NCBI RefSeq assembly: GCF_002209355.2
Contig: NZ_CP106855.1
Coordinates: forward strand, 3,534,001 to 3,598,000
Reading direction: 5' to 3'
Origin: Bdellovibrio sp. SKB1291214
GTDB lineage: Bacteria > Bdellovibrionota > Bdellovibrionia > Bdellovibrionales > Bdellovibrionaceae
Length of the DNA: 64,000 bases
Shown: positions 37,661 through 44,987 of the stretch, piece by piece
How positions within the stretch are numbered: the stretch's first letter is position 1
Layout: the number at the start of each line of letters is the position of its first letter
Notes under the pieces: generated by a model
What the model was told of the DNA's origin: nothing
Seen by the model: the letters and a program-made list of their open reading frames with translations, nothing else
Database searches by the model: none
Made by a program: the position numbers and the translations under genes

Positions 37661-38059
37661 ATGGCGTCGAATTCAGTGCAAGACAGCGAAACCGCGAAAT
37701 GTATTAAAGCCTGTATGAATTGCACCAAAGCGTGTATGGAAGCCCTTCATTATCTTTTGCAACAAGGGGTTTCAGGCAAAAATGTCTCTGTTCTGCAAAT
37801 GTGTGCAGAGGCGTGTCAGCTTTCATCAAAAATGATGTTGGCAGAGCTAGAGTTTCATCACCAGGCCTGTGAGCTATCCTTTGAACTCTCAACAGCTTGT
37901 GCCGCGATCTGTGCGTCCTATGACGATCCTTTGATGCAAAGATGCGCTGAAGCTTGTCGTCACTGTTCGGAAACTTGCCGTGGTATGGCAGGGATGACAG
38001 TGCATATGAAGGGGACAGCAAAGGACCTACGCAGCACTTTGCCGTCCACTCGTTTATAA
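37661..38059 (+). CDS. Cys-rich four-helix copper-storage-like protein (DUF326)
   Basis: The 132-residue protein has 13 Cys spaced on helices: CIKACMNCTKAC (14-25), CAEAC (48-52), C70, CAAIC (80-84), CAEACRHCSETC (95-106). This matches the Csp3/DUF326 family that stores Cu(I) inside a four-helix bundle. No signal peptide is present, so it is cytosolic. GGAGG lies nine bases before the ATG. A short dyad AGGT-N4-ACCT lies upstream at 37627-37638. The stop overlaps the stop of the DUF2063 gene by six bases in convergent orientation, placing copper storage next to the MNIO operon. Confidence 0.87.
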   Translation: MASNSVQDSETAKCIKACMNCTKACMEALHYLLQQGVSGKNVSVLQMCAEACQLSSKMMLAELEFHHQACELSFELSTACAAICASYDDPLMQRCAEACRHCSETCRGMAGMTVHMKGTAKDLRSTLPSTRL

Positions 38060-38818
38060 CAGGATGATATCGTCGATAATGCCGGTTCTCATCAAGATGT
38101 GAAACAGCTTCTTGTTGTCGGCTGGCGAGATCACTTCAGAAAAGCCTGAAAGCGCTTGAGAAATACTTTTGCCTTTGCGCAGATCTAGAATCACTTCTGC
38201 ATGAGTGGGATCGATAGGTTCCACCATAAGTTCTTTATCTTTTTTATAGATCAATACGCTCTCCGGTTTATTCCAGTCGATATCTTCGTACATGTAACGT
38301 GGCTCTTTTCGATGTGCCCACAGTGAAGTCACTGAATACATGCTTTGGAATATACCCATCGCTTCAATAAATGATATGCGGAAGTTATTCGAGTGGATCA
38401 CGTCATGGACATTTTCGACAGGAACGGGATCTGGAGTGGCGGCATTGTTTACTTCTTTTAAAAGCCACTCGAATTGCGCTAAATCCTGTAAAAACGGAAT
38501 ACCGCGAGTTTTCGCCGTCGCTCCCAAATACTCGGGAAAATTGGCTCCGTACTCTGACAGTCGAAAACTAACAGCAGGTTGGGATTCGATATATCGCCCC
38601 GTCAGCTCGTGAAAAAGATCAGGTCCCAATACCCAGGCGAAAGTTTCATAAGTGCGGGCCAATGCGCCAGCTAACTTTGAATAATAGATGTCGTGATATA
38701 TTTCGAAACCCTGTTCTAAAGGAATATTGCCGACGGGACGCATGCCTTGCAGGACCTGGTCGGATACTACATTGAACATTCCTGACTTAAACAAATGCTG
38801 AGCTTCGCTGGTTTTCAT
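38054..38818 (-). CDS. DUF2063 partner protein of the MNIO enzyme (BufC-like)
   Basis: The N-terminal half matches DUF2063 (IYHDIYYSKLAGALARTYE, then VLGPDLFHELTGRYI, LSEYGANFPEYL, and a Leu-rich helix QDLAQFEWLLKEV). In MNIO gene clusters this family works with the DUF692 enzyme and holds the peptide substrate through a winged-helix RRE-like C-terminal domain. The C-terminal part (about 170-254) is compatible with that. The start overlaps the MNIO gene by 32 bases with GGAG upstream. The length of 254 is usual. Confidence 0.85.
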   Translation of the reverse strand: MKTSEAQHLFKSGMFNVVSDQVLQGMRPVGNIPLEQGFEIYHDIYYSKLAGALARTYETFAWVLGPDLFHELTGRYIESQPAVSFRLSEYGANFPEYLGATAKTRGIPFLQDLAQFEWLLKEVNNAATPDPVPVENVHDVIHSNNFRISFIEAMGIFQSMYSVTSLWAHRKEPRYMYEDIDWNKPESVLIYKKDKELMVEPIDPTHAEVILDLRKGKSISQALSGFSEVISPADNKKLFHILMRTGIIDDIILL

Positions 38819-39641
38819 TATTGTTCTCCAAGATAAAAGAGGCTTTGATCACTTCCATTTCGAGATCGCTAAAATCGGGAATATTGCGCTGTCTTTCAAT
38901 TCCGACCGGCAGATGTCGGATATAAGGTGCCACGATTTTGAATAGATCCCAGACAGGTCTGGTCACCTCAGACGCTTTCCTGTCCAACCAATGTGATTCC
39001 GTTTCGGTAGGCCCCGATAAATGAACTTGTACGACTTGATTCAGTGGCAAACTTTGCAATTGTTTGCGCGGACAGAATCCATGGTTCATTGCATTTACGT
39101 AGAGAGCACCGAGATCTAATACCAATCCGCATCCGGTGGCGCGTGCAAGTTCACTCAGGAATTCAAACTCGCTTTGATCACTGTGAGCATAGTTCACATA
39201 GGTCGCTATGTTCTCAAGGGCGATGGATGTTTTAAGCTGGTTCTGAACAGAATCAATATTATTGCTTACCAGTTGCATAGTTTCTTGATTTAAAGGAAGT
39301 GGCAAAAAACTATGCATGTTGTGAGTACTAACACCGGTCCAGCAAAGATGATCTGAAACGACGAATGGTTCCACTCGTTCAATCAAATTTCGCAATTCTT
39401 GAATATAGGTGGCATCAACCCCATCCGGATTGCCGATATTTAAGTGAGACCCATGTAAAGCAATGGGATAGTCATGGCGAAGTTTTTTTAACACTTCCAT
39501 GGAACGGCTCAGGGGAGACATATAATCTTCACTGGAAGCTTCAAACCATGTGACGTCTGTCAAAGGCTGTTGTTCTAAAAAAGAAAAATGGGAAGGGTTT
39601 AAGCCCATTCCCACTTTGAAGTTTGATGTTTGATACTTCAT
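38787..39641 (-). CDS. MNIO-family (DUF692) enzyme, divergent metal site
   Basis: The TIM-barrel family shows clearly: GMGLNPSHF, WFEASSEDYM (Glu38), ALHGSHLNIG (His63), VSDHLCWTGV (Asp97, His98), LENIATY (Glu143) and NHGF (His187). In this family multinuclear iron modifies Cys in peptides (MbnB, bufferin BufB). Three positions differ from the usual family pattern as I recall it: DVNN is D176-L-G-A179, HLAGH is HLSGP (Pro211), and DTH is DRK (Lys222). The enzyme may use fewer irons or be inactive. It overlaps YceI by four bases (ATGA) and DUF2063 by 32. No DUF2282 precursor is adjacent. Confidence 0.83.
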   Translation of the reverse strand: MKYQTSNFKVGMGLNPSHFSFLEQQPLTDVTWFEASSEDYMSPLSRSMEVLKKLRHDYPIALHGSHLNIGNPDGVDATYIQELRNLIERVEPFVVSDHLCWTGVSTHNMHSFLPLPLNQETMQLVSNNIDSVQNQLKTSIALENIATYVNYAHSDQSEFEFLSELARATGCGLVLDLGALYVNAMNHGFCPRKQLQSLPLNQVVQVHLSGPTETESHWLDRKASEVTRPVWDLFKIVAPYIRHLPVGIERQRNIPDFSDLEMEVIKASFILENNNENQRSSAFV

Positions 39642-40237
39642 TTGGCTTTTCCTGGTACGATGGCTTCGCCTTCGATTTCCACGTCAACATTGTCACCAAC
39701 CACGACGCCTCCTGTTTCAAGTGCTTTATTCCACACCAAGCCGAAATCTTTTCTGTTTAGTTTGGTTTCGATTTCAAATCCGATGCGGCGATTGCCCATG
39801 GGGTCTGTGACGGCACCTTTGTAATCCACATCCAGTGTCACATCTTTTGTCACGCCATGAATAGTGACCTTGCCTTGAACTTTTTTGGGTTTGGCCGTGT
39901 CGTATTCCGTTTTGCTGCTTTTGAATTCAATTGCTGGAAACTTGGCGACGTCTAAGAAATCAGGACTTTTTAAATGTTTATCGCGATCGGCTTGATTGGT
40001 GTTTATAGAATCCGCTTGGATTTTTACAACCACGTTATCCAGTTTTTGAGACTTTTCATCAAAATCGAAACTGCCTTCGAATTTGGTGAATGATCCTTTT
40101 ACTTTTGAAACCACCATGTGGGGTACTTTGAAAGTAACGCTTGTGTGGGCAGGGTCAATGTTGAATTTTGCGGCCCAGGCAGGGGTTGATAGAAATGCAG
40201 TTAGGATCAAGAGAGTTTGGACTCTTTTGTAGTGCAT
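39638..40237 (-). CDS. Secreted YceI-family lipid-binding protein
   Basis: A signal peptide (MHYKRVQTLLILTAFLSTPAWA) leads to a YceI beta-barrel of about 178 residues (FNIDPAHTSVTFKVPHM, then GSFTKFEGSFDFDEKS and VKGKVTIHG-type strands). Family members bind isoprenoid or quinone tails in the periplasm. The start is ATG at 40237 with GAGG upstream, not the longer in-frame start. It has no Cys, so it is not a modified-Cys precursor. It heads the coupled MNIO operon. Confidence 0.9.
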   Translation of the reverse strand: MHYKRVQTLLILTAFLSTPAWAAKFNIDPAHTSVTFKVPHMVVSKVKGSFTKFEGSFDFDEKSQKLDNVVVKIQADSINTNQADRDKHLKSPDFLDVAKFPAIEFKSSKTEYDTAKPKKVQGKVTIHGVTKDVTLDVDYKGAVTDPMGNRRIGFEIETKLNRKDFGLVWNKALETGGVVVGDNVDVEIEGEAIVPGKAK

Positions 40238-40525: not shown

Positions 40526-40930
40526 ATGAGTAAAGTGGATGATTTTTTTGAAGAGCGGATCGAGGGGATGATTTCTAAGATCCGTAGGAAGCCTTTGTTC
40601 GATGAGACTTGTATTTTTAGTCTTGGGGCGCGGTTGCTTGGGGATAAGTGGACTATTATTATTTTGGTTATTTTGATGGAAGGGAAGAAGCGCTATAGCG
40701 AGTTGCAGCGACAGATTCCTACGATATCTCCCAAGATGTTGGCGCAAACTCTTAAGAAGCTTGAACAGTTGGATTTGGTGAAGCGTCAGGTGTATCCTGA
40801 AGTACCTCCGCGAGTTGAGTATGAGCTGACTTCGTTTGGTAAAAGTGTTCGACCGGCAATTACCATATTGTGTGAGTGGTCGGTAGAGCATGACTCTAAA
40901 ATCCGCCGGGTTGCTAAAAATGTAGAATAA
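40526..40930 (+). CDS. HxlR-family winged-helix regulator
   Basis: The family signature is C29 followed by SLGARLLGDKWTIIILVIL and YSELQRQIPTISPKMLAQTLKKLEQLDLV. A PPRVEYELTSFG wing is present. The lone N-terminal Cys just before the HTH is the redox-sensing type known in YodB/HypR relatives. The length is 134. It is convergent with the SnoaL-like gene and shares a dyad with it; regulation of that gene and itself is inferred. Confidence 0.9.
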   Translation: MSKVDDFFEERIEGMISKIRRKPLFDETCIFSLGARLLGDKWTIIILVILMEGKKRYSELQRQIPTISPKMLAQTLKKLEQLDLVKRQVYPEVPPRVEYELTSFGKSVRPAITILCEWSVEHDSKIRRVAKNVE

Positions 40931-40957
40931 AAAAAGGGCAGCGAGAGCTGCCCTTTT
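40929..40957. terminator. Bidirectional terminator between HxlR and SnoaL-like genes
   Basis: A perfect 7-bp stem GGGCAGC/GCTGCCC with a GAGA loop is flanked by seven A and four T residues, so it can stop both convergent transcripts. Confidence 0.9.
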
Positions 40958-40960
40958 ACT

Positions 40961-41410
40961 TTAAAGCGTGGCGATAGCGCCTTGATAGTTGTTGTTTTCT
41001 CCAAGCGCAGTCATGGCTACGAGTGGATCCCAGAAATCTTTGTAGCGTGTGATTTTTCCGTCTTTGGTGTAGACCAGTGAGATGTAGGTCTGATTGTAAG
41101 GGTTGCCATTGGCCAGCATGTGCCCTTTCGCGGTGAACTCTGCCACGACCAGTTCTGGGTCTTCAGTTAAATGAAAAGTCGGCTTCGAGAATTCCAGTTT
41201 GATGGTTTCTGGGAAGTGTCGCATGTATTCACGGATCATGGCCTTGCCTTCAACTTGTCCTGGATAGACCGGCAATTTAAAAGGGAATTCTAGCACTCCA
41301 TCCTCCGCCCACAGATTCACCCACTCATCTACTTTGCCGGATGAGAGATTATCTAAATGGGCTTGAAATGTGTTTTGTGCTTGTTGTCTGAGTTCTTCTT
41401 TGGTTTTCAT
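40961..41410 (-). CDS. SnoaL/NTF2-like small protein
   Basis: The 149-residue alpha+beta fold of the NTF2-like superfamily is supported by VDEWVNLWAEDGVLEFPF, VEGKAMIREYMRHFP and VVAEFTAKGHMLANGNPYNQTY (cited by parts). Such proteins often act as isomerases or in ketone metabolism; activity is unknown. No signal peptide. Its promoter carries the HxlR dyad. Confidence 0.82.
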   Translation of the reverse strand: MKTKEELRQQAQNTFQAHLDNLSSGKVDEWVNLWAEDGVLEFPFKLPVYPGQVEGKAMIREYMRHFPETIKLEFSKPTFHLTEDPELVVAEFTAKGHMLANGNPYNQTYISLVYTKDGKITRYKDFWDPLVAMTALGENNNYQGAIATL

Positions 41411-41437
41411 GATGTAACGCCTTTCTTTTAGTTTGTT

Positions 41438-41455
41438 ACTATCTAAAAGATAGCA
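41438..41455 (-). promoter_or_regulatory. Dyad ATAGT/TGCTAT before the SnoaL-like gene
   Basis: On the minus strand it reads TGCTAT-N7-ATAGT, the same spaced motif as at the HxlR promoter, and lies 28 bases before the SnoaL-like start. The inner bases extend the arms to CTATCT/AGATAG. Confidence 0.5.
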
Positions 41456-41495
41456 TCATTTTTGAATTTGAGAAGATCGCACTATTTTGTGCCTG

Positions 41496-41513
41496 ACTTT
41501 CCAAAAGGAAAGT
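41496..41513. repeat. Perfect inverted repeat ACTTTCC-AAAA-GGAAAGT
   Basis: Seven-base arms and a four-base centre lie between the SDR gene stop and the SnoaL-like promoter. No T-run follows, so an operator is more likely than a terminator. Confidence 0.45.
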
Positions 41514-41594
41514 AATGAAGCGGTTTTGATTTGGCGGCGTCGCCCGGGAAATTATTTTTTTACCAGACGCGCCAAAAGGACTAGCGCTTTGCTA

Positions 41595-42476
41595 TTAGTA
41601 GTTTTCTTGAATGTCGGTTAATAGGTCTGTTTGGGTTGGTCTCCAGTTTAAAATATCTTGAGTCAGTTTGTTAGAGGTAGGGGCATGAAGGGAGGCGAAG
41701 TGGGTGAACCAAGTGAAGTGGGCTTCGGCCTCTTGTCGTGATTTGCTGACTACCGGAAGGTTTAGTTTTTTGCCGATGAGTTCAGCTATTTGTTTGAAAG
41801 ATATTTCTTCCGCTATTGCATGGTAATTAGCTTGTTTGGCTCCTTTTTCTAGGGCCAGTCTGTAAAGGACTGCTGCATCTAAGCGGTGGATGGCAGGCCA
41901 TTTGTTTTCGCCATCTTCAATGTAGGCCGAGACACCTTTTTCTTTTGCCAAACCAATGAGTACAGGTACGAAGCCCTTATCGCCTTTGCCATGCACTGAT
42001 GGAGCCAAGCGAACAACCGAAGTTCTTACTCCTTGTATTGCCACGTTTTGTGCGGCTTCTTCAGAGGCTGCTCGGGGGTGTCCCGTCGGACCAAATATTG
42101 GCATGTCTGATTCTAAGGCCCTACGCCCTGGCGTCAGTATCGCTGCACCAGAGGTTATCACTAAAGGACGATCCGTCCCCTTAAGGACCGTACCTAGTGT
42201 TTCGATAACGGCACGATCAGTTTCACAGTTTTCTTTAAATTTTGAAAAGTCGTGGTTGAATGCTGTGTGAATGACACCATCAGATTTTTCAGCGCCAGAT
42301 TTGATGGAGTTCAAATCATAGATATCACCCAGGTGAACTTCAGCTCCTGCGGTTTTAAGTTGGGATGCACCTGCTTCTGATCTGGCAAGGCCGAGGACCT
42401 TGTGGCCTGACTTTAGTAGTTCTTGAACGACGACGGAGCCTACAAAACCTGTGGCGCCTGTTACAAATACTTTCAT
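41595..42476 (-). CDS. NAD(P)-dependent SDR/epimerase
   Basis: An extended short-chain reductase begins MKVFVTGATGFVGSVVV with the nucleotide-binding GxxGxxG (residues 7-13). The catalytic Tyr-x3-Lys motif is not clear, as in atypical NmrA-like or epimerase members. The substrate is unknown. The start is ATG at 42476 with GAGG upstream, four codons inside the longest frame. It is divergent from the AraC regulator, which probably controls it. Confidence 0.83.
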   Translation of the reverse strand: MKVFVTGATGFVGSVVVQELLKSGHKVLGLARSEAGASQLKTAGAEVHLGDIYDLNSIKSGAEKSDGVIHTAFNHDFSKFKENCETDRAVIETLGTVLKGTDRPLVITSGAAILTPGRRALESDMPIFGPTGHPRAASEEAAQNVAIQGVRTSVVRLAPSVHGKGDKGFVPVLIGLAKEKGVSAYIEDGENKWPAIHRLDAAVLYRLALEKGAKQANYHAIAEEISFKQIAELIGKKLNLPVVSKSRQEAEAHFTWFTHFASLHAPTSNKLTQDILNWRPTQTDLLTDIQENY

Positions 42477-42541
42477 AACTGACCTCATTTATGTTTAAGT
42501 TCGTTCTTACAATTTATCAGGTGTGTGGATATCGTAAATTC

Positions 42542-42557
42542 CCAAAGGTCCAAAGGT
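42542..42557. repeat. Tandem 8-bp repeat CCAAAGGT in SDR/AraC spacer
   Basis: Two head-to-tail copies of CCAAAGGT lie between the divergent genes. CCAAAAC follows at 42571. Direct repeats suit an AraC-type binding site. Confidence 0.45.
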
Positions 42558-42624
42558 ATTGCCTAATCGTCCAAAACCGGGATAGTGATTTGTGACGGTG
42601 CGGATTTTGGTTTAAAATTGAGAT

Positions 42625-43512
42625 ATGAAAGACCTGGCTTCGCAGCTCTTAAAAGCGTTCAATGACTACGGCCCTCCGGAAGGGACTCATCCGACACCTG
42701 TTACAGGGGTATATTGCACAAAAATATCTCAGGATCGTCCCAAATCGAAACTTCGTTGGCGAGCTTGTTTGGGAATTGTGGTGCAGGGCTGTAAGGAAAT
42801 CGTTTTAGGGCGCAGTGTTTATCGTGCGGAACTTTCGCATTTTACCGCGACACCCTTTGAATTGCCTGTAACTAGTCGCGTGCCTGTGCAATCCAAAGAC
42901 AAACCTTTTTTGGCGATCCTTATTGAAATCAATCCGCAATTATTGACGGAAGTGGCTGCTCAAATGAGTCATGATTTTTTAAATGAAAAGGATGATACAC
43001 CAAGAGCCCTTTTTGCAGGCGAAGCCGATGAGCAGATGTTGGAAGCGGCTCTGCGCTTAACGAAGCTTTTCATCAAGCCTGAGGATGCGACGGTTGTGGG
43101 CCCATTGATAGTTCGCGAGATTCTTTATTATCTGCTTAAAACATCTCAAGGATCCGCGATTCGCCAGGTGGTTTCTTCAGGAAGCAAAATGCATCAAGTT
43201 TCGAAAGCATTGTTTCAGTTGAAATCTGATTTGCACCAGCCCATTGATGTGAACGAGCTGGCTAAGGTGGCAAGCATGAGTCGTTCTGCTTTTTTCAAAC
43301 ACTTTAAAGAAGTGACGGCAATGAGTCCGATACAATATCAAAAGCGGTTGCGACTTTTAGAAGCAAAACGTCTGATGATGGATGAAAATGAAACGGCGGA
43401 AAGTTCTGCTTTTAAAGTGGGCTATAAAAGTGCCTCTCAATTCAGTCGCGAATATTCGCGGATGTTTGGTAAGGCTCCTCTGAAGGATGTGACCGCTTTA
43501 AAAAAGAGATAA
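42625..43512 (+). CDS. AraC-family regulator
   Basis: The N-terminal 180 residues match the AraC_N cupin region. Two C-terminal HTH motifs are at about 205-290: VNELAKVASMSRSAFFKHFKEVTAMSPIQYQKRLRL (cited by parts DVNELAKVASMSRSAFF and AFKVGYKSASQFSREYSRMFG). The length is 295. It is divergent from the SDR gene. Confidence 0.9.
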   Translation: MKDLASQLLKAFNDYGPPEGTHPTPVTGVYCTKISQDRPKSKLRWRACLGIVVQGCKEIVLGRSVYRAELSHFTATPFELPVTSRVPVQSKDKPFLAILIEINPQLLTEVAAQMSHDFLNEKDDTPRALFAGEADEQMLEAALRLTKLFIKPEDATVVGPLIVREILYYLLKTSQGSAIRQVVSSGSKMHQVSKALFQLKSDLHQPIDVNELAKVASMSRSAFFKHFKEVTAMSPIQYQKRLRLLEAKRLMMDENETAESSAFKVGYKSASQFSREYSRMFGKAPLKDVTALKKR

Positions 43513-43565: not shown

Positions 43566-44987
43566 TTAGAATTTCAAAAGGGCGCCAACATCCAATTTAC
43601 CATTAGATGTTACTTTGCCGTTCAAAGCTGGGATTGGTTTTGCAGAACCCAAGATCGCAGCTTTAACGTCTTGCCAAGATTTCTCTGGGTGAGCTGACCA
43701 GTAAAGAGCTGCTGCACCGGCAACGTGTGGAGTGGCCATTGAAGTCCCATCCCAAGTTGCTTTAAAACCGTATTTATCGATTACGATATCAGAATAGTTG
43801 TTAAACACCGTCGTCGAGAAAACAACAACGCCTGGTGCGCCGATATCTACAGAACGATTGCCCCAGTTCGAGAATGAGCCCAATTGGTCTTTAGCATCGA
43901 TAGCTGCCACAGAGATGATGATGTCGTGTGGATAGCTTGATGGGTAAGCTGGTGCTGCGTCGTTATCGTTGTCATAGCCGACACCTTTGTGACCGTTACC
44001 AGCCGCTGCGATGAACAAAACACCTTTGTCTTGTGCAAACTGAACTGCATCACGAAGAGCTTTATTCTCTGCGCCTGCATTTGGATCTTCACCTTCAGAA
44101 CCCCATGAGTTGCTCATGATTTTTGCGCCGTTGTTCACTGCATAGTTGATCGCTTTGATCGCGTCGGCCGTTGTGCCTTGGCCTTTTTCAGAGATGAAAC
44201 GCAAAGACATGATTTTCACGCCTGGTGCAACGCCTGCGATACCTTTGCCGTTATTGTTGCGGGCAGCAACGTTACCAGCGCAGTGAGTCCCGTGACCTGG
44301 GTTGCCACCTTTGAAAAGGATATCAAGTGGCTCCATAGAAAGGTCATAAGGTTTGTTGTCATTAGATACAAAGTCCCAACCAATAGTGTCATCGATGTAG
44401 CCGTTGCCATCATCGTCGATACCGTTGTTAGCGATCTCTTTTGGATTTCTCCAAAGATTTGGAAGGAGGTCTTCGTGGGTATAGTCTACGCCCGTGTCGA
44501 TCACCGCGACAACAACATCTGGAGAACCCTGAGTGACTTTCCAAGCTTCAACCACACCAATGTTGTTCATGCCCCATTGTTTATTGAACAATGGATCTGC
44601 GCCCGTAGTTGCTTGCGGAGCGTCAGGGATTTCTGGGTTGTCTTTAATCGCCAGAACTTGTGGTTCTGGGTTACGGCGCAACATTTTTGCCAAAGCAGCT
44701 CTGCGCAAAGGATCTTGGATGCGATAGTCTTCCATCAAGTGAATCGGATAGTTCGGTTGCACATACTCAACCGCTGGATTTTTCGCCAAAGTGTTGAAAC
44801 TCATAGATTTGGGCGCTTGAACACGAACTAGATTTTCCGTGATTTTTTCTGTTTTCGCGCCTGAAATTTCGACGTTGTCGAAGCCAGGTGCCAGTTTAAT
44901 GAGCAAATCTTGTGTTTTGTGTTGAGCTTGAGCACCCAAAGCAAAAGCGAGAATGGCAGAAGAGGCGAATACAGCCATCTTAGTCAT
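43566..44987 (-). CDS. Secreted subtilisin-family (S8) serine protease
   Basis: A signal peptide (residues 1-21, ending AQAQ) and a propeptide of about 100 residues precede the catalytic domain. The triad is Asp164 (AVIDTGVDYTHEDL), His232 (GHGTHCAGNV) and Ser416 (GTSMATPHVAGA), with oxyanion Asn331. The domain carries a Ca-binding-like DDDGNGYIDD at 191-200. The length of 473 fits a fervidolysin-like subtilase. It stands alone and is a candidate exoenzyme for prey or peptide degradation; that role is inferred. Confidence 0.95.
   Translation of the reverse strand: MTKMAVFASSAILAFALGAQAQHKTQDLLIKLAPGFDNVEISGAKTEKITENLVRVQAPKSMSFNTLAKNPAVEYVQPNYPIHLMEDYRIQDPLRRAALAKMLRRNPEPQVLAIKDNPEIPDAPQATTGADPLFNKQWGMNNIGVVEAWKVTQGSPDVVVAVIDTGVDYTHEDLLPNLWRNPKEIANNGIDDDGNGYIDDTIGWDFVSNDNKPYDLSMEPLDILFKGGNPGHGTHCAGNVAARNNNGKGIAGVAPGVKIMSLRFISEKGQGTTADAIKAINYAVNNGAKIMSNSWGSEGEDPNAGAENKALRDAVQFAQDKGVLFIAAAGNGHKGVGYDNDNDAAPAYPSSYPHDIIISVAAIDAKDQLGSFSNWGNRSVDIGAPGVVVFSTTVFNNYSDIVIDKYGFKATWDGTSMATPHVAGAAALYWSAHPEKSWQDVKAAILGSAKPIPALNGKVTSNGKLDVGALLKF

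Follow-up and report, generated by a model that had tools for sequence, protein, structure and literature searches.

We analysed a window of 64,000 nucleotides from the genome of Bdellovibrio sp. SKB1291214, a single contig of 3,681,188 bp that carries one MNIO gene. On the reverse strand of the window, an operon of three overlapping genes begins with a secreted protein of the YceI family (39638-40237; PF04264, 166.8 bits), which has 199 aa, no cysteine and, as judged by eye, a Sec-like signal peptide. It is followed by a BufB-like MNIO with a degenerate iron site (38787-39641; PF05114, 258.9 bits) and by a DUF2063 partner protein of the BufC/PME-like kind (38054-38818; PF09836, 52.9 bits, above the cut-off). 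The YceI stop and the MNIO start share an ATGA overlap of 4 bp (39638-39641), which leaves no room for a small open reading frame between them, and the MNIO and DUF2063 genes overlap by 32 bp. On the forward strand, a gene for a Csp3-like protein of 132 aa with 13 cysteines (37661-38059) converges on the DUF2063 gene with a 6-bp overlap; we regard it as a neighbour rather than as a member of the operon. Gene order and overlaps are as described in an earlier note on this DNA. On the side of YceI, genes for an HxlR regulator, a SnoaL-like protein, an epimerase-like protein and a 295-aa protein (40526-43512; Pfam and synteny) lie between the operon and a homologue of S8-type proteases (43566-44987, reverse strand), which marks the flank conserved across Bdellovibrio. 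The four intervening genes are not found at the corresponding place in the compared species.

The ancestral product of such an operon is a secreted cysteine-containing peptide, the cysteines of which are oxidised by the MNIO with the help of the DUF2063 protein. Six-frame searches for the BufA2 precursor, with the NF050166 profile and with our own alignment of 12 precursors, covered 119 related genomes and returned many matches in other genera, mostly beside an MNIO gene. Among the 24 Bdellovibrio genomes, BufA2 was found only in G005 and G020; neither search detected it in the remaining 22, the window genome among them. In both carriers, a small gene located exactly between YceI and MNIO, at the position of the ATGA overlap in the window, is BufA2 (68 bits with NF050166 for the G005 protein, cut-off 60). 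With the DUF2282 profile (PF10048), no match in the window genome or any other searched genome of Bdellovibrio exceeded the cut-off; a 40-aa match in G006 was sub-threshold (18.4 bits) and was taken as chance. An HvfA-like profile had no match in the window genome and, within Bdellovibrio, only cross-matched the BufA2 proteins of G005 and G020. Positive controls were detected in each of these precursor searches. The absence of the precursor is real and derived: no BufA precursor was found in the operon or elsewhere in the genome by the NF050166, A1, PF10048 and A3 searches. The earlier note had reported that no DUF2282 precursor is adjacent, and the genome-wide result extends this observation. 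Overall, the MNIO-DUF2063 pair is kept without BufA2 in 17 of the 24 Bdellovibrio genomes, and BufA2 is kept in 2.

Common flanking genes show that the operon occupies the same locus throughout Bdellovibrio. The side with the S8 protease is common to the Bdellovibrio loci, with the exception of G020, and the gene p484 forms the other flank in most of these loci and in the outgroup G035. MarR and Csp genes beside an RND pump are common to the window-clade members G000, G011, G012 and G022 as well as to G005 and G020, and in G010 a fragment of the Csp gene follows the operon at the end of a contig. A tree of gyrB only left the placement of G005 open; in a concatenated tree of five genes, which include genes linked to the locus, the BufA2-bearing G005 is the sister of the window clade (96.5/99). 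Given that the outgroup G035 also carries BufA2, the simplest reading of these trees is that BufA2 was lost at least twice within Bdellovibrio, with MNIO and DUF2063 retained each time; a transfer of the operon from one species to another is possible as well. The presence of the DUF2063 partner and the derivation from an operon with BufA2 at this locus, as indicated by synteny and trees, uphold the assignment of the operon to the bufferin type that the earlier note had made.

The states of the locus in living species can be arranged as a series of decay, a comparison that does not in itself prove the order of events. The operon is complete in G005 and G020. BufA2 is lost and the iron-site signature intact in 11 species, whereas in the 5 species of the window clade BufA2 is lost and the iron site is broken. 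G017 has lost BufA2 and YceI together with six of the ligand positions. In G008, DUF2063 stands alone at the locus (L246, 4597-5346) and no MNIO was found in the genome, and in G004 and G015 the locus no longer holds any gene of the operon. Neither G013 nor G016 has an MNIO in its genome, and the locus itself was not found there. G015 harbours, in an unrelated cluster, tandem genes for divergent MNIOs of 266 and 388 aa (L044, 5193-7156), one with an intact and the other with an altered signature.

The position of YceI at the head of the operon is old. Among 80 MNIO loci from GTDB genomes, the order YceI-BufA2-MNIO(-DUF2063) occurs in 16, which belong to Bdellovibrionales and their relatives, to one member of Spirochaetia and, in eight cases, to Omnitrophota. 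YceI lies within 3 kb of the MNIO in 18 of the 80, the remaining 2 being Bdellovibrio loci without BufA2; since the choice of the 80 loci was based on similarity to the MNIOs of Bdellovibrio, this fraction should not be taken as a rate for the family as a whole. Since YceI also leads operons that contain BufA2, in several phyla, it is the gene that usually heads BufA2 operons and does not stand in for the precursor, contrary to the suggestion of the earlier note that it leads in place of the missing peptide. No paper among those retrieved in our literature searches mentioned YceI together with an MNIO, or YceI in Bdellovibrio; its recurrence at the start of BufA2 operons in different phyla is what the scan of GTDB loci adds. 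Several other arrangements were seen in these loci. Fusion of MNIO with DUF2063 is frequent in the eight Omnitrophota loci, and fused proteins of 508-617 aa are encoded 3' of YceI and BufA2 in L170, L183, L194, L206, L207 and L217. In G104 (L010, 466-885), a secreted protein of 139 aa with repeats that look YHS-like by eye is encoded between YceI and two copies of BufA2. MNIO-DUF2063 pairs of Spirochaetia and Leptospirales (L171, 1758-3322; L177, 2989-4520) have an intact signature and, upstream, a gene for 406-489 aa, with no small cysteine-rich open reading frame.

In the alignment, the iron-site signature of the window MNIO reads HHEDAHDKEQ, compared with HHEDNHDHED in all 94 BufB-like MNIOs from outside Bdellovibrio. 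The latter form is also kept in 13 Bdellovibrio genomes. In the window clade the pattern is HHEDAHDKE with Q, I or H as the last residue, G010 shows additional losses (HHEDANNKEE), and the signature of G017 is HSTDARDRDK. In TglH, Fe1 and Fe2 are bound by H71, H107, E151, D184, H216 and E258, and Fe3 by D184, N187, D229 and H231 (PMC10880893). The first set aligns to H63, H98, E143, D176, H207 and E249 of the window protein, where all 6 are kept; the second aligns to D176, A179, D220 and K222, so that the two aspartates are kept, the Fe3-ligand asparagine is replaced by alanine (codon 179, 39105-39107, reverse strand) and the Fe3-ligand histidine by lysine (codon 222, 38976-38978, reverse strand). 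Two residues after the last ligand, Q251 (38889-38891, reverse strand) replaces the aspartate that is catalytic and essential in VcMbnB, D240; mutants of D240 and Asn168 lose activity or protein (PMC8888699). With residue numbering matched via 3bww, positions 179 and 222 correspond to HvfB N175 and H244, and the site-3 mutants N175A, D242A and H244A of HvfB each lose all activity (PMC13419390). Because two Fe3 ligands are changed and HvfB loses its activity when mutated at either of these positions, we predict that the window MNIO cannot make a bufferin or turn cysteine into thiooxazole. It has probably, though not certainly, lost all catalysis. Altered catalysis is possible, given that the Fe1 and Fe2 ligands are all kept and that some site-3 mutants of homologues retain low activity: this is the case for the Fe3-ligand mutant H231A of TglH, and the equivalent mutants of MbnB are described as reduced in activity rather than inactive (PMC13419390).

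A179 and K222 are identical in all 5 members of the window clade and position 251 varies. This constancy would fit, weakly, a new constraint, weakly because the clade is invariant at 120 of the 284 columns anyway. Most of the more divergent MNIOs of the order retain the signature, and two further ones differ at some of its positions, namely one in G029 and one of the tandem pair of G015. A genome of another family of the same order, G090, encodes an MNIO with the signature HHQDSRDRTS, next to which lie a gene for a short DUF2063-like protein, on the downstream side, and no precursor (L041, 6119-7460); this is a third degenerate MNIO, besides those of the window clade and G017. The MNIO tree grouped G017 with the window clade (83/90); this grouping was dropped, since G017 shifts to the base, in agreement with the species tree, when the active-site columns are masked. 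Both the five-gene tree and the MNIO tree with masked columns place G017 away from the window clade, so that two separate losses of the same two Fe3 positions are probable. The DUF2063 tree was not used because of its poor resolution.

The genes of the operon evolve faster in the window clade than in the species with an intact signature, with median distances relative to gyrB of 12.7 versus 2.6 for MNIO, 14.4 versus 6.1 for DUF2063 and 10.2 versus 3.4 for YceI. The dN/dS of MNIO is 0.13 in the window clade, a value from one unsaturated pair, versus 0.01-0.04 elsewhere. No stop or frameshift was found in the MNIO or DUF2063 genes of the clade, despite synonymous sites that are near saturation between most species. 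Constraint on the operon is thus relaxed but still purifying. Structure models predict that both folds are kept: that of the window MNIO (pLDDT 84.5) matches TglH and 3bww with Z scores of 27-28, and that of the DUF2063 protein (pLDDT 85.0) resembles NGO1945 (3dee) and TglI.

The 13-Cys protein is related to copper-storage proteins of the Csp3 group, with phmmer matches to 3lmf (1.7e-10) and to Csp3 5fig (2.5e-8); its match to PF03860 (DUF326), at 16.9 bits, is below the cut-off of 20.4. It has fewer cysteines than a typical Csp3, and no signal peptide is evident by eye. Csp is present in 23 of the 24 Bdellovibrio genomes, mostly far from the MNIO, and adjoins the operon in 7. It is also present in G008, G013 and G016, all of which lack an MNIO. 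The adjacency is a derived arrangement, p484 being the flank in common with the outgroup. The earlier note had proposed the cysteine-rich protein as a substrate or metal partner and had named the adjacency across Bdellovibrio as the check; with 7 of 24, conserved adjacency is largely wanting. Because of this distribution, Csp is better viewed as a neighbour and unlikely to be an MNIO substrate. Some features do fit such a role, namely the convergent overlap, the relation of the family to copper, and the adjacency common to the window clade, G005 and G020; taken with the evidence above, a part for Csp as substrate or metal partner is highly improbable.

Collectively, these results make it probable that the window contains a derived bufferin-2 operon, which has lost BufA2, has a degenerate MNIO iron site, and persists as a pair of genes under weak constraint. 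From an ancestral order YceI-BufA2-MNIO(BufB)-DUF2063(BufC), the BufA2 gene was, as the comparison among species shows, deleted in the lineage of the window, joining YceI directly to MNIO. The next step would have been the loss from the MNIO, visible in the sequence, of two Fe3 ligands and of the aspartate after the last ligand. Judging from the published mutants of homologues, the enzyme is predicted to be thereby unable to convert cysteine to thiooxazole. The MNIO and DUF2063 proteins, which retain the Fe1/Fe2 ligands and the DUF2063 fold, respectively, most likely persist as a non-catalytic or altered complex beside their ancestral partner YceI. Because some species keep only DUF2063 or nothing, the pair may be dispensable in the long term.

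A rival reading is that of a pure relic, an operon without function that drifts towards loss. The graded losses across the genus, from BufA2 through the iron site, YceI and MNIO to the whole operon, and an MNIO rate 12.7 times that of gyrB speak for it; we consider it unlikely in view of the unbroken frames and a dN/dS far below 1. A precursor that has been relocated in the genome, or has become unrecognisable, and is still modified by the MNIO is another possibility; in its favour, the frames are intact in 17 genomes without BufA2, 11 of them with the full signature, and the 5 of these 11 that were scored all pass the BufB cut-off. However, the searches with BufA2, our own alignment, DUF2282 and HvfA-like profiles match nothing above cut-off in Bdellovibrio beyond G005 and G020, and the MNIOs of the window clade have lost Fe3 ligands and the catalytic-type aspartate, so that we hold such a precursor to be distinctly unlikely. 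YceI itself might have become the substrate of the pair, with a modification other than that of cysteine: it is the only other constant member of the operon, is secreted like bufferin, overlaps the MNIO gene, is kept in 18 of the 19 Bdellovibrio loci of this type that bear an MNIO, and is absent from those identified loci in which the MNIO has disappeared. It is nonetheless free of cysteine in nearly all species, leads the operon also where BufA2 is present, stands in the window beside a broken iron site, and has extra copies away from the MNIO in most genomes; we find this very unlikely. A tentative proposal, possible but doubtful, is that the pair was repurposed after the loss of bufferin: an intact BufB-type enzyme would act on an unrecognised substrate, possibly YceI, in the 11 species, and the enzyme of the window clade would have taken on a new role, either without catalysis, as a pseudoenzyme, or as a diiron enzyme of altered kind.

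The derived operon that we favour shares with bufferin-2 (BufA2-BufB-BufC) the locus, the MNIO, the DUF2063 partner, the order and the overlaps, as well as the YceI leader of many of the BufA2 operons examined. It differs in the absence of BufA2 and in its MNIO, which lacks two Fe3 ligands and the catalytic-type aspartate and scores 263.5 bits against the BufB equivalog (NF050167, cut-off 310), whereas the enzymes of the BufA2-bearing G005 and G020 reach 319 and 340. Within the wider MNIO family (MbnB/TglH/ChrH), the window protein has the PF05114 match, the TIM-barrel fold and the Fe1/Fe2 ligands, without the full Fe3 set. HvfABC, which produces oxazolin in Haemophilus, has in common the MNIO with a DUF2063/RRE partner, and its iron site maps residue by residue via 3bww; unlike HvfABC, the window lacks HvfA and has natural substitutions of the kind that inactivates HvfB. 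In adjamnio-II and -III, the MNIO likewise has no adjacent precursor gene, but the upstream gene there encodes a peptidyl-tRNA hydrolase-like or an HExxH protein (PMC12452194), whereas in the window it is YceI and the loss of the precursor is traceable; text searches found no iron-ligand loss in these two groups. The 13-Cys protein, although related to Csp3 copper-storage proteins, merely adjoins the operon.

Genome mining of MNIO enzymes assumes that each has a peptide to modify, and the operon described here illustrates that a match to an MNIO is not proof of a RiPP. Bdellovibrio offers a traceable series of species in which the peptide would have been lost first and the enzyme kept, with separate losses of its iron site in at least two lineages. 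The MNIOs of the window clade and of G017 may serve as natural variants at the disputed third iron site. The 11 species with an apparently intact bufferin maturase and no recognisable bufferin raise the question of the role of this enzyme in predatory bacteria. If the pair has indeed been repurposed, it would represent a non-RiPP function for the MNIO enzyme family.
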